From positions 1-26,991 of IMG/VR virus record IMGVR_UViG_3300000928_000032: a stretch of 26,991 nucleotides of DNA; one strand, 5' to 3'. The position numbers and the translations under genes were made by a program. This DNA is from a virus. Each line of letters begins with the position of its first letter. The stretch's first letter is position 1. Positions 10,212 to 26,162 of the stretch are shown piece after piece. The notes under the pieces are model-generated. The model had not been told where the DNA came from. It worked only from the letters and a program-made list of their open reading frames with translations, and searched no databases.

Positions 10212-10240
10212 ACCGATTATTCAAAACCGTGTTTTGGCAC

Positions 10241-10271
10241 TTGACTTTCTCATTTTTTTTCCGTAACTTCG
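10241..10271 (+). promoter_or_regulatory. Rightward promoter into the central non-coding region
   Basis: TTG at 10241-10243 is separated by 20 bases from TAACTTCG at 10264-10271, close to the Bacteroidota pattern. The box region is strikingly like the promoter at 16705-16735: TTGACTTT-x-TCATTTTT and CC-x-TAACTT are shared. Transcription would start near 10275 and enter 1.7 kb without a protein gene. Confidence 0.65.
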
Positions 10272-10406
10272 CTTCACTGTGTATGAGCAGCCATCCTACG
10301 GCACACGTTTCACGTTAACCGAATAACAGCAGTAGTGCGTGGGCTTCCAAGCCCCAAGCACAACGTAGACACGAGAGCGATAGCGGTGACATCCACAGCG
10401 AAATAC

Positions 10407-10444
10407 AAGGGGGAGCATTGTGTCCAGTCGCAGCGCTTCCCCTT
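10407..10444 (+). other. Ten-base-pair hairpin in the leader RNA
   Basis: AAGGGGGAGC (10407-10416) pairs with GCTTCCCCTT (10435-10444) over ten positions with one G-U pair and an 18-base loop. The GGGGAG of the left arm (10410-10415) could alternatively pair with CTCCCC at 10477-10482, which is followed by GTTTTTT. Confidence 0.5.
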
Positions 10445-10582
10445 CTTCTGTCATTGCCCCTGTTGTCAACCGCATACTCCCCGTTTTTTGGGGTTAGAAA
10501 TATGTACCGTGGGGATAATTATACTAAGACGACGTCCGGCTCCCCAAACCGAAACGGAATCCTGACCCCAACCCCCTTGTTT

Positions 10583-11122
10583 TCAGATAGTTAGCATCAA
10601 ACTTTTCAGCGTTTTGGGTTGGTTAGGCTACCTTAAACGTATTCATACCGATATCAGGTGGTTTTTAGTGGGGGAAAGTGGTAGATGTCAGGCCATCAAT
10701 CCTCCCCTAAATTTCCTATACCATCTTATCAAACTTTTCTAGTTACAATTCGCATATCAGATTAGCATAGTATTCCCTTGGTTTCTATGGGCTTTAAATC
10801 GCATCTAATCGCTTCAAATAATAACATCGGTATTCGGTATCGTTTCCCTCCTTTTACTGCGTTAATCTTAAACATATGTATTCGCACTAATTCCTTTAAA
10901 TACTGACATGAGTGCATCATTTAACTTATTGGTCTTCAGTTAGTTACGTCAGAATTAGTCGCATACCATTTCTTTAATCGGTTGATTTTCAGTCAGTTAA
11001 CTCAAAACACCCCTTGAAAACTTATGGTACATCCTACCTTAACTCAACTATTTATCCTCTTTTTTAGTCACATCACCACTTTTTTTAGTCAATGTTAACT
11101 CGCTGACTATCAGGCAGTTACG
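10583..11122 (+). repeat. Iteron-like repeats, TCAGnnAGTTA(n)C/G
   Basis: Four direct copies share TCAGnnAGTTA: 10583-10595 (nn=AT), 10936-10948 (TT), 10989-11001 (TC) and 11110-11122 (GC). The last three lie within 190 bases. TTAACTC also occurs three times between 10997 and 11102. Directly repeated short words in a T-rich stretch without genes are typical of binding sites at a replication origin. The boundaries are by eye, and no DnaA-box consensus was found. Confidence 0.5.
11059..11091 (+). repeat. Direct repeat C-T6/7-AGTCA
   Basis: CTTTTTTAGTCA (11059-11070) and CTTTTTTTAGTCA (11079-11091) are near-identical tandem copies with an 8-base spacer, inside the iteron-like region. They could be a protein site or part of a DNA-unwinding stretch. 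Confidence 0.5.
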
Positions 11123-11159
11123 CTTGATTTCCCTATATATACCTATTAGGGGGGAGGGA

Positions 11160-11891
11160 TTTCTTTGGTGGGGCACTTGTCAGATTCGCCAAGTGTTCGT
11201 ATACTTGTGCTGTTCAACGGAACAACGTTCATTTCTTTATCAGGTGAAAATCGAAACCCGGATGCGGATGCTGAGGGCAAGTAGATGAGTAGGTGGAAAA
11301 AGTCCCAAACGAGGATACATTAGATTGGCTGTAGGAACAACTCCTCCCAAATAATCTAAACCCCTCTTGTGAACCCCATACGATTCTAGCAGAGCGCCAC
11401 GGCAACCTGCTAGTCGGGCGGTGGGGAGCGGAGTAGCAGAGCAGGTAGATTAGAGTAGGCGATGTAAGCGAAAATGAGCGTAGAGCGCAGTACACAGCAG
11501 GTCAATGAAAAGTAGGGAGGGCGGTTAACGAAGATACGAGCAAAGCCTAGTAGGCCGGCCGTAAGAAATCAAAGTTCAACGTAGTAAAGCGAGAGCGGCC
11601 GTGGCCGCCATCGTTACTTGTGAAGACAGCGACCAATGAACGCCGGCAGAACACCTGCGCAAATATCTCAATAATGTAAACTTGAAAACGGCATCAATCT
11701 CAACACGTTCGGTTGCAATCGGGCAATCGATAAAAGGTTGGCGCTGTTAGACCCAAACCCACAGCATATGCGGTATCGGGACGCTAGGCGTCCGCATCGC
11801 CAAAAGGGAGCAGGTCGTTAGTTTACTCTTTTCTTTTCTGCGGTTCGGCAACGTCCAATCGGGGGCTAGTGGTTCGACTCCACTGCGCAGA
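11160..11891 (+). ncRNA. Candidate large structured non-coding RNA
   Basis: About 730 bases, purine-rich on the plus strand and apparently richer in G+C than the preceding part, contain a series of strong inverted repeats. CACTTG/CAAGTG lies at about 11174-11195 and TGTTC-AACG-GAACA at about 11211-11224. CTAGCAG/CTGCTAG (7 bp, about 11387-11413) is enclosed by CCCCA/TGGGG. GCGGC-CGTG-GCCGC lies near 11594, and GGACGC-TAG-GCGTCC near 11779 is enclosed by ATGC/GCAT. GTAG recurs many times. GCAGGT recurs at about 11438, 11496 and 11809, with complementary ACCTGC at about 11404 and 11651, allowing long-range pairing. The 3' end is a tRNA-like T-arm plus acceptor. Large ornate phage RNAs such as GOLLD and ROOL have similar size, intergenic setting and proximity to tRNA-like elements, but I cannot match either consensus from memory. 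Confidence 0.45.
11837..11891 (+). ncRNA. tRNA-like T-arm and acceptor end (not a complete tRNA)
   Basis: AGTGG-TTCGACT-CCACT (11868-11884) is a perfect 5-bp T-stem with a canonical 7-base loop beginning TTC. It is followed directly by GCGCAGA, which pairs over six positions with TCTGCG at 11837-11842. Only 24 bases lie between the acceptor 5' strand and the T-arm, too few for D- and anticodon arms. It resembles the tRNA-like end of a larger RNA, a degenerate tRNA, or a copied tRNA 3' end as found in attachment sites. Confidence 0.4.
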
Positions 11892-11958
11892 CCTAATCCA
11901 ACCAAAACAAAAACAACTAACTCAAGAGTGCAAGAGCATAACACGGCACATAACGACC

Positions 11959-12204
11959 ATGGAAATTGGAATCAGCGAACTCAGCAATGCTATCAGCAAA
12001 GCAAATTGTTCTTCGGATGTTCTCGATGCACAATGTATCGTTTCACAAATCGAATTCCTTAAGTATATACTTGAGGATGTAAAAGATGAGCGCAATGAGC
12101 ATGTGAGCATCGACAATCGTTACTCGTATCCGGGACATTCAAAAGCAATCGATGGATTGTTGAATATTCTCTCTTTGATGGAATCTAAATTGGCATCCAA
12201 ATGA
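11959..12204 (+). CDS. Hypothetical 81-residue helical protein
   Basis: From ATG at 11959 the product begins MEIGISELSNAISKANCSSD and is mostly helical with alternating charges; VSQIEFLKYILEDVKDERNEHV looks amphipathic. The frame is open further upstream to a GTG at 11869, but that would run through the tRNA-like element, so the internal ATG is chosen. The stop overlaps the next start (ATGA). It is the first gene after the central non-coding region, hence probably among the earliest expressed. No family recognised. Confidence 0.6.
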   Translation: MEIGISELSNAISKANCSSDVLDAQCIVSQIEFLKYILEDVKDERNEHVSIDNRYSYPGHSKAIDGLLNILSLMESKLASK

Positions 12205-12356
12205 GCATGAGATTCTTTCGCAAGTTCAAGAAGGTAGATGTAGTCACCTACCAATCTATCCGTGCTATGTACGGAGATGAGCAAGTCATCTTCACATTCC
12301 GTGTGGTAAACGGACAGCGCCAAGGCGTGGCGCAAATGTCGTTCGTGCGACAATAA
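12201..12356 (+). CDS. Hypothetical basic 51-residue protein
   Basis: ATG at 12201 overlaps the previous stop (ATGA); TAA at 12354-12356. The product begins MSMRFFRKFKKVDVVTYQSI and ends GVAQMSFVRQ. The basic start and a beta-like middle (QVIFTFRVVNGQRQG) suggest a compact fold. The overlapped start and balanced composition make it a probable gene. Function unknown; small basic early proteins often act on host targets. Confidence 0.6.
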   Translation: MSMRFFRKFKKVDVVTYQSIRAMYGDEQVIFTFRVVNGQRQGVAQMSFVRQ

Positions 12357-12370
12357 ATAGAACATTAAGC

Positions 12371-12403
12371 ACGAAGCGTGGGGCTACGGCCCCGGTTGTC
12401 TTA
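12371..12403 (+). other. Intergenic hairpin with TACG loop
   Basis: GGGGC (12380-12384), TACG loop, GCCCC (12389-12393). It is preceded by CACGAAG and followed by GGTTGTCTTAC. The core GGGGCTACGGCCCC recurs exactly at 22931-22944 with a similar flank. There is no U-tract, so it is not a standard terminator. It may stabilise a message end or act as a weak attenuator before the amidoligase gene. Confidence 0.55.
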
Positions 12404-12420: not shown

Positions 12421-13806
12421 ATGTCAGTTATTAACATTCTTACCGGCCGTCAAATCATGGAAAGCCGTGCGCAATTCAATCGTCAGTTCGGCTTTTGGTT
12501 CGCACGTTCGGCCAATGCTATCGGATATAACTACGCTGATGAGGCAGGTGAAATTCGCAGCACTTCAATCCCTACAGCCATTGCAGAGCAGTACGAGATT
12601 AACATCCAAGAAAGCGTACACAGCAGTATGCTGTTAGAGATTGAGGGTTTCAAGTTAAACCGAATGCACGTACGTACCGAAAGTGAGCCACGCTTCCCGG
12701 AGAAAGCCCACGTGCTAGTTCAACTTCCTAACGGAAGCGTTGACATACAAGAACTCCCCGTGTACTTGAGTCGTTGGGCATCAAACGGCTATCGTTTCAT
12801 CAATGAGGATGGCGGAGTAAGTTTGCTTAACTCATGCCGTTCGCTCATCGCTCAAGTGATTGCAAACATTCCGCAGTTAGTTATAGATGGCACGTACATC
12901 TATGAGAACATGGAAGCACGTAGAACACATGGCCCTACACCACAACTTAGTGGTTATCACGGCCCGAACCGAAGCACGGAATTATTACGTGACTCTAGCG
13001 TTGATTGGTTCGTAGGCATCGAGGTCGAGAAAGAAGACATGGGTGTCCGCAATCATTGTGCATACGCTAATTGTGACCTTGGTAACGGATGGATTGCCGA
13101 GCGTGATGGCTCACTTGATAATACCGGTTTCGAGGTAGTCAGCCCGGTGATGAATCTAATGGACACGGCATCCTTGTTCGCTGAGTATGACCGACTCGAT
13201 TGGGTCATGAATGCGGGATATTCTCGCCGTTGTGGCGGTCACATCACCATCTCTCGCAAGGGAATGTCAACCGATGAATTGGTTGCTAAACTCATGCCAT
13301 TCGTACCCATGTTGTTTTCCTTGTACGAGGGCCGATTGTCTAACGGATACAGCGGTGTCCAATCCAAGCGTGACATCGAGCACGGCTCACGTCGTGCTAT
13401 TCATCGCAAGAGAGGAGGCGCTGTAGAGATTCGCATCTTCTCTGCTGTTCCCTCCTTGGATGGCATCAAGTTCCGCACAAAATTAGTTCAGTGGATTGCA
13501 CGTGCTATTGACAGCGGAAAGTTCACTACCTACTCTGATGTTGCAGAGGCTATGTTCAGCGACAAGAAATTATTCAAATTGCTCAAGAGCCAATACGACA
13601 ACACGAAACTGCGCCGCAAGCAGGCCTTGGTCTACTTGTTCGCAGGTTGCCTAGAGGACGTGAGCGCACGTAACTTCCTCAAGCAGGATGACCACGACCG
13701 AATGATTGAGCGCATCAAGAATGCGTACAACTCGATGAGCGTTTACGTTCGCCGGGAGGTACACGGAAAGTTCGGTGGTGCAACGATTGACAAGTCACTC
13801 GTTTAA
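12421..13806 (+). CDS. Amidoligase-family enzyme (COOH-NH2 ligase, glutamine-synthetase-like fold)
   Basis: This 461-residue protein carries the Amidoligase_2 pattern in its middle. The first strand WFVGIEVEKEDMG holds acidic metal ligands (Glu in GIEVE), then come WIAERDGSLDNTGFEVVSPV, RRCGGHITISRKG and RGGAVEIRIFSAVPSLDG. These correspond to the ATP/Mg-binding acidic and His residues of the glutamate-cysteine-ligase-like fold, which forms amide bonds between a carboxylate and an amine using ATP. The first 190 residues are not recognised and may hold a substrate-binding domain. As far as I recall, families of this ligase are found in gene neighbourhoods with class II glutamine amidotransferases and AIG2/GGCT-type cyclotransferases; both kinds of gene are present here (14623 and 19304). 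The target, such as a peptide, cell-wall unit or nucleotide, cannot be told. Confidence 0.75.
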   Translation: MSVINILTGRQIMESRAQFNRQFGFWFARSANAIGYNYADEAGEIRSTSIPTAIAEQYEINIQESVHSSMLLEIEGFKLNRMHVRTESEPRFPEKAHVLVQLPNGSVDIQELPVYLSRWASNGYRFINEDGGVSLLNSCRSLIAQVIANIPQLVIDGTYIYENMEARRTHGPTPQLSGYHGPNRSTELLRDSSVDWFVGIEVEKEDMGVRNHCAYANCDLGNGWIAERDGSLDNTGFEVVSPVMNLMDTASLFAEYDRLDWVMNAGYSRRCGGHITISRKGMSTDELVAKLMPFVPMLFSLYEGRLSNGYSGVQSKRDIEHGSRRAIHRKRGGAVEIRIFSAVPSLDGIKFRTKLVQWIARAIDSGKFTTYSDVAEAMFSDKKLFKLLKSQYDNTKLRRKQALVYLFAGCLEDVSARNFLKQDDHDRMIERIKNAYNSMSVYVRREVHGKFGGATIDKSLV

Positions 13807-13839: not shown

Positions 13840-13933
13840 GGTGGTGTGGTACGGCACATCACCAACTCGTTTGGGCGAGTATAAATAGACATTAGGCCTA
13901 AAGCGGTGGGCGCTCACTATCACGAGCGCTCAC
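13840..13933 (+). other. Three consecutive hairpins between the amidoligase and the next gene
   Basis: GGTGGTGTG (13840-13848) pairs with CACATCACC (13855-13863). ACTCG (13865-13869) pairs with CGAGT (13876-13880). GTGGGCGCTC (13906-13915) pairs with GAGCGCTCAC (13924-13933), ten pairs with an ACTATCAC loop. The rest of this 155-base gap holds no start codon or gene. The GGGCGnTCACTATCACG word of the third hairpin recurs at 15421-15437. Confidence 0.6.
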
Positions 13934-13961
13934 GTTGTATTAACCACTTTATTTTATTATC

Positions 13962-26075: not shown

Positions 26076-26148
26076 GCCCCCGTAGCACAATGGATAGCGC
26101 AACGCACTTCTAATGCGTAGGTTGCTGGTTCGAGTCCAGCCGGGGGTA
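26076..26148 (+). tRNA. tRNA-Arg (anticodon TCT)
   Basis: Acceptor GCCCCCG pairs with CGGGGGT (one G-U at the end). The D-arm is GCAC/GCGC with one A-C mismatch. The anticodon stem is ACGCA/TGCGT with loop CTTCTAA and anticodon TCT at 26109-26111. The T-arm is GCTGG-TTCGAGT-CCAGC. CCA is not encoded. It reads AGA, and perhaps AGG, codons, which the early genes use often. Confidence 0.9.
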
Positions 26149-26162
26149 CTAAACTAAATGTT

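Follow-up and report, generated by a model that had tools for sequence, protein, structure and literature searches.

The centre of the analysed phage DNA almost certainly encodes a real structured non-coding RNA, at 11214-11891 of the plus strand. Our best reading of this transcript is a new phage long non-coding RNA (hereafter long RNA) that shares its transcript with an amidoligase operon and is set free by the tRNA-processing enzymes of the host, where transcription, co-transcription and cleavage are inferred. The window, i.e., the whole stretch of 26,991 nt that was analysed, comes from an IMG/VR virus contig of 27.4 kb, and its features are listed in Table 1. A preliminary description of this DNA had suggested a large structured RNA, perhaps of a new family. 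This suggestion is now backed: homologues exist, they show covariation and a conserved promoter, and no reading frame is conserved among them. Hence the test for a structured non-coding RNA, i.e., covariation beyond chance together with no coding conservation, is met. The preliminary description did not include the most interesting part: a mascRNA-like tail that recurs at the gene boundaries of relatives, at places where the window has Pistol ribozymes. Few large structured RNAs are known from phages, and they are poorly understood. If our reading is true, a phage RNA built like MALAT1 represents a convergent case and shows how phages cut long transcripts without nucleases of their own.

Table 1. 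Features of the long RNA and of the adjoining operon (window coordinates).
Feature	Position	Strand	Remarks
Bacteroidota-type promoter	11177-11207	+	TTG-N20-TAnnYTTG; predicted RNA start about 11214
Long structured non-coding RNA	11214-11891	+	~680 nt with the tail counted in; 5' end inferred from promoter
Domain 1, long branched arm	11302-11522	+	~220 nt; closing helix 11302-11305/11519-11522
Helix CCCCA/TGGGG	11374-11378/11422-11426	+	encloses CTAGCAG 11386-11392 / CTGCTAG 11407-11413
Apical loop GCCACGGC, tip of domain 1	11396-11403	+	proposed pairing with 11598-11605
Hairpin loop GCCGUGGC	11598-11605	+	partner of 11396-11403; proposed kissing interaction
Hairpin H1, domain 2	11710-11729	+	CGGUUGC/GCAAUCG
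Hairpin H2, domain 2	11770-11800	+	outer GCGGU/AUCGC; inner GGACGC/GCGUCC (11779-11784/11788-11793)
tRNA-like tail	11837-11891	+	acceptor 11837-11842/11886-11891; GG 11847-11848; short hairpin 11853-11856/11863-11866; T-arm 11868-11884
81-aa reading frame	11959-12204	+	between tail and Pistol 1; no convincing family match
Pistol ribozyme 1	12337-12400	+	20 nt 5' of the 461-aa gene; Rfam RF02679, 51.6 bits (cut-off 34.5)
461-aa amidoligase-like protein gene	12421-13806	+	conserved in the phage group
Pistol ribozyme 2	13865-13939	+	59 nt 3' of the 461-aa gene; Rfam RF02679, 68.1 bits

The gene-free centre of 1.7 kb in which the RNA had been located is confirmed, as 10225-11900 holds no plausible plus-strand gene. 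Minus-strand genes, of the portal, terminase and endolysin families, prevail to its left, and plus-strand genes lie to its right. The region is purine-rich as described (purine fraction 0.56 over 11160-11891 and 0.62 in 11250-11620), and GTAG is indeed in excess, with 10 occurrences in 11160-11891 against a shuffle mean of 3.6 (10 or more in 0.1% of the shuffles). The start of the RNA, however, had been placed at 11160 and is probably located near 11214 instead, 3' of the promoter. This promoter motif is found at the same aligned position in 10 out of 11 homologues; the chance expectation is about 2.4 matches per 27 kb window, counting both strands. A conserved reading frame was not observed: each frame of each homologue contains stops, and no frame is common to the homologues. 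Coding conservation in one frame, which would have refuted a structured RNA, is thus not found. Many gaps of the homologue alignment are not multiples of three.

Using blastn and two DNA patterns, we identified homologues in some ten separate phage contigs (representatives: L004, L040/L005, L099, L087/L095, L092, L006, L007, L097, L083 and L085/L094), plus one distant pair, L137/L138. Over the conserved part, these representatives are about 71-75% identical to the window (94% for L004). Synteny of the long RNA is kept among the homologues, and no similar DNA was found in named phages. For the distant pair, local alignments of L138 against four relatives beat all 200 shuffles each (z 6.1-9.6); against the window itself, L138 gives no alignment signal (z 1.2). 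L137/L138 and the RNA homologues have tandem UAUGCGG hairpins and the tail in common, and a search for more distant homologues via these hairpins only returned L137/L138 again. A covariance model of domain 1, applied to 77 loci, recovered close relatives only; a match of this model in L168 (E 0.006), which spans 98 nt, was judged as chance. Three matches of an RNA pattern search in bacterial and archaeal genomes were likewise taken as chance, since they occur in unrelated taxa; the domain-1 model search did not report them.

The folding energy of the single sequence shows no excess over shuffles (z = -0.10). Stems alone therefore prove nothing, and the claim of a conserved structure is carried by comparisons between phages. 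Covariation was assessed in an alignment of window 11299-11610 with ten relatives, from which the consensus structure was derived as well. The consensus of domain 1 comprises 68 pairs, with 94.3% of the cells paired and changes on both sides in 29 of the pairs, whereas controls with slid partners reach 29-42% of cells paired and 2-9 pairs changed on both sides. None of 500 shuffles attains the observed covariation score, fraction of cells paired, or number of pairs or cells with two-sided changes; the count of further pair types is unremarkable (127 out of 500 shuffles). Because the consensus structure came from the same alignment, a cross-check with independent structures was run. The structure derived from nine relatives alone yields 75% pairing in the window and L004, compared to 33-49% with slid partners, and 17-18 pairs are kept there via double changes. 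Conversely, the structure of the window alone yields 57-64% pairing in the relatives, compared to 29-45%. In a tree-based test, the CCCCA/TGGGG helix shows 4 compensatory events versus a maximum of 2 in 60 simulated alignments; none of the other helices individually exceeds the simulated null. The homologue sample contains only two deep lineages and one distant pair, and thus many double changes reflect few events. G-U pairs make up about 7% of the paired cells, including invariant ones, and as they form only on the plus strand, this is the strand that folds. The stems named in the preliminary description, CTAGCAG/CTGCTAG inside CCCCA/TGGGG and GGACGC/GCGTCC, are present.

The two loops GCCACGGC and GCCGUGGC remain complementary in every homologue (7 pairs by the alignment test). 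Both loop sides change in L092, from A-U to G-C, which is a single event. The resolved parts of domain 2 are the hairpins H1 and H2, and the remainder is unresolved. H1 reads GCGGUGC/GCGCCGC or GCAUCGC in relatives, with 7 out of 7 pairs kept; the inner stem of H2 is replaced by AAACGC/GCGUUU in L004 and by UGUUGC/GCAACA in L040, again with all pairs kept. Comparison with relatives leads to a different outer helix of H2 than the ATGC/GCAT that had been suggested, namely GCGGU/AUCGC.

The 3' end of the RNA had been described as a tRNA-like T-arm plus acceptor. Both are present, but they are not all there is: the tail forms a small but complete tRNA-like structure, consisting of an acceptor of 6-7 bp (6 bp, not 7, in the window), a D-loop-like linker carrying GG, a short hairpin that replaces the anticodon arm, and a canonical T-arm. 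Homologous tails pair throughout, and GG occurs near the linker start in every compiled tail. The acceptor strands co-vary between lineages (TTCTGCG/CGCAGAA, ACTGCCG/CGGCAGT), and the short hairpin co-varies as well (UGCAC/GUGCA, UGCGC/GCGCA, UGCC/GGCA). Membership among tRNAs, i.e., an anticodon arm and recognition by a tRNA finder, is not met by the tail. ARAGORN does not call it a tRNA and finds only a tRNA-Arg at 26076 in the window; as in this tRNA of the phage, CCA is not encoded in the tail.

In all homologues, the long RNA ends in the tail. Among related loci totalling 1.75 Mb, a scan gave 17 distinct hits, one of them inside a tRNA-Leu, and hence 16 tails; shuffles gave 0. The tails outside the RNA homologues were found by pairing, such that their pair counts are partly built in. 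Most RNA homologues whose contig continues have the next gene 34-68 nt behind the tail (216 nt in L099), and across all phages with tails this distance is 5-68 nt in most cases (216 nt in L099, 262 nt in L076). A 60-aa ORF cut-off underlies the distances for L099 and L076. Some tails adjoin an RNA or a gene unrelated to that of the window: the tail is located 3' of small reading frames in L050 and L076, and L140 and L141 have one tail 5' and another 3' of the amidoligase-like gene, where no sequence homology between the upstream RNA and the window RNA was detected. The flanks of the amidoligase-like gene are thus occupied by tails in L140/L141 versus Pistol ribozymes in the window. Tails thus recur at gene boundaries and stand where the window has Pistols, as a movable boundary element would. 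Other T-loop matches in the same phages are tRNAs or have no evident tail, with one unclear case in the L076 record. The upstream RNA-like region of L140 and L141 (3390-4264 in both, 72% mutually identical) occupies the same place as the long RNA and likewise has a tail of this kind at its end.

Within the window, both Pistol ribozymes flank a single amidoligase-like gene, and L004 has Pistol 1. Outside the window and L004, no Pistol ribozyme was found among the loci scanned, nor were ribozymes found next to more distant amidoligase-like genes. The amidoligase-like protein of the relative L087 has only a weak PF12224 match (E 0.034, below cut-off). We further observed tRNA-like elements without a callable anticodon arm in more distant phages that have an amidoligase-like gene (L164 3352-3399, L165 2221-2282, L172 139-199).

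The features of mascRNA-menRNA, i.e., acceptor, T-arm, D-loop GG and a compact substitute for the anticodon arm, are met by the tail. mascRNA is the 3' tail of MALAT1, from which RNase P and RNase Z release it; its tRNA-like fold is maintained by the two guanines of the D-loop (PMC11693755). Like the phage RNA, MALAT1 and MEN beta with their mascRNA and menRNA are long non-coding RNAs ending in a small tRNA-like structure, and the likeness includes a 7-bp acceptor, the T-arm, two D-loop guanines and a compact hairpin for the anticodon arm. The Rfam family mascRNA-menRNA (RF01684) is the best match of the tails in L087, L099, L092 and L040 (30.9 bits, E 3e-4 to 8e-4). Other tails score 19.6-24.6 bits, and the window's own tail has no RF01684 match. 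The gathering cut-off of 42.5 bits is not reached by any tail. Matches below the cut-off also occur in 14 out of 14 control genomes, presumably in tRNAs; the match of the tails therefore indicates compact tRNA-likeness, not descent. MALAT1 and MEN beta are vertebrate RNAs, and no sequence homology between them and the phage RNA is claimed. In contrast to MALAT1 and MEN beta, no triple-helix element was seen upstream of the phage tail, and cleavage in the phage is inferred. According to a 2025 paper, no lncRNAs other than MALAT1 and NEAT1 are matured by tRNA-processing machinery (PMC12941219). The chances are about even that the phage transcript is the first phage, perhaps the first non-animal, lncRNA whose 3' end is made by this machinery via a mascRNA-like tail, and that such tails are interchangeable with Pistols as punctuation around the amidoligase-like gene. 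A phage RNA with a mascRNA-like tail was not found in the open-access literature; an earlier description is not excluded, as subscription papers are mostly uncovered.

No known Rfam family matches the gene-free centre. The preliminary description had named GOLLD, ROOL and tmRNA as families to compare. Neither the window nor the relative L087 gives a GOLLD or ROOL covariance-model hit up to E = 10, and neither ARAGORN nor Rfam finds a tmRNA over cut-off, so that all three are excluded at the level of sequence and structure. The long RNA resembles GOLLD and ROOL in being large, ornate, intergenic, phage-borne and tRNA-linked, but its tRNA-like part is its own 3' end, and it precedes an amidoligase-like gene. 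With tmRNA it shares a tRNA-like domain without a D-stem joined to a longer RNA, but it has no tag frame and its tail closes locally on itself. Theta ribozymes adjoin phage tRNAs (PMC10879173). As in mitochondrial tRNA punctuation and theta ribozymes, tRNA-type or ribozyme elements are found at transcript boundaries; here, however, the tail is no decoding tRNA, and the boundaries enclose a long non-coding RNA and an amidoligase-like mRNA.

As a whole, the observations are best explained by the following scheme, which we consider fairly probable. Its own Bacteroidota-type promoter would make the long RNA (about 620 nt plus the ~55-nt tail) at the start of a transcript that runs on into the amidoligase operon. 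The tail is predicted to fold with its acceptor stem stacked on the T-arm and with a D-loop-like GG. RNase P reads the stack of acceptor and T-stem and needs a T-loop or a similar loop; the D-loop appears dispensable (PMC4919913). Host RNase P would cut 5' of the tail, fixing the 3' end of the long RNA, and host RNase Z (or exonucleases) would cut 3' of it, freeing the downstream mRNA. The tail may thus serve as punctuation, as mascRNA does for MALAT1, with Pistol ribozymes at the next boundaries in the window lineage. The released RNA would present a long arm whose tip pairs with the second hairpin, and would probably be structural or regulatory early in infection, which is a working guess. 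No transcript or cleavage data are behind this mechanism. It builds on the observed homology, structure, promoter motif, tail and placement, from which timing and final function are inferred as well. We lean towards processing of the tail by tRNA enzymes, although the cleavage itself is inferred without cleavage data.

The region could instead be a long cis-regulatory 5' leader of the amidoligase operon, riboswitch-like or translational, with the tail as an uncut structural element or an uncharged tRNA mimic. In favour of a leader, the region directly precedes the operon and shares its strand, the next ATG follows 34-68 nt behind the tail in most RNA homologues, and no promoter motif was matched between the window tail and the gene. 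However, the tail recurs 5' and 3' of genes without this long RNA (L050, L076, L140, L141), and Pistol ribozymes occupy matching places in the window. Cutting therefore fits better than leader control, and we regard a leader as improbable, though not to be dismissed. Size, phage setting, elaborate structure and the possible loop-loop contact would suit a self-assembling cage RNA in which the tRNA-like part is incidental, given that GOLLD and ROOL are cage-forming phage RNAs near tRNAs (PMC12286853). The missing covariance-model match and the constant position of the tail at the exact 3' end render this unlikely; as it concerns the later function, a cage would be compatible with release of the long RNA by tRNA-processing enzymes.

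A part in the replication origin, as a primer or an origin RNA comparable to RNA II of plasmid ColE1, is suggested by the GC-skew minimum at 10751-11250 and by TTGATTTTCAGTCAGTTA-like repeats just upstream. The skew change also tracks the divergent gene orientation, though, the tail would have no clear role, and coding genes hold the same place in L050 and L076, which leaves an origin RNA very unlikely. Finally, phages carry tRNA fragments at attachment sites and the T-arm of the tail is canonical, such that a decayed tRNA gene or a host-tRNA-derived attachment site (attP) beside an ordinary spacer might be considered. This reading is already disfavoured and scarcely tenable: the acceptor has both of its strands, which co-vary between lineages, a co-varying hairpin replaces the anticodon arm while GG and T-loop persist, and the rest of the RNA is structurally constrained.

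Further elements were observed around the long RNA. Iteron-like repeats (TTGATTTTCAGTCAGTTA and variants) at window 10929-11125 coincide with the GC-skew minimum and represent a candidate replication origin. A separate element at window 10496-10630, UGGGGA-UUAUA ... CCGAAACGGAAUC ... CCCAACCCCC, is conserved throughout the phage group and also occurs in loci without the long RNA (L032, L043, L050, L071, L076). The octamer CACTATCA recurs 3' of the amidoligase-like stop codon in most relatives, often right behind a hairpin with a T run; its window copy (about 13910) falls within Pistol 2. The tRNA-Arg (UCU) of the window extends over 26076-26149, and a tRNA-Arg (UCU) is also found in the records of L040, L093, L099 and L092.
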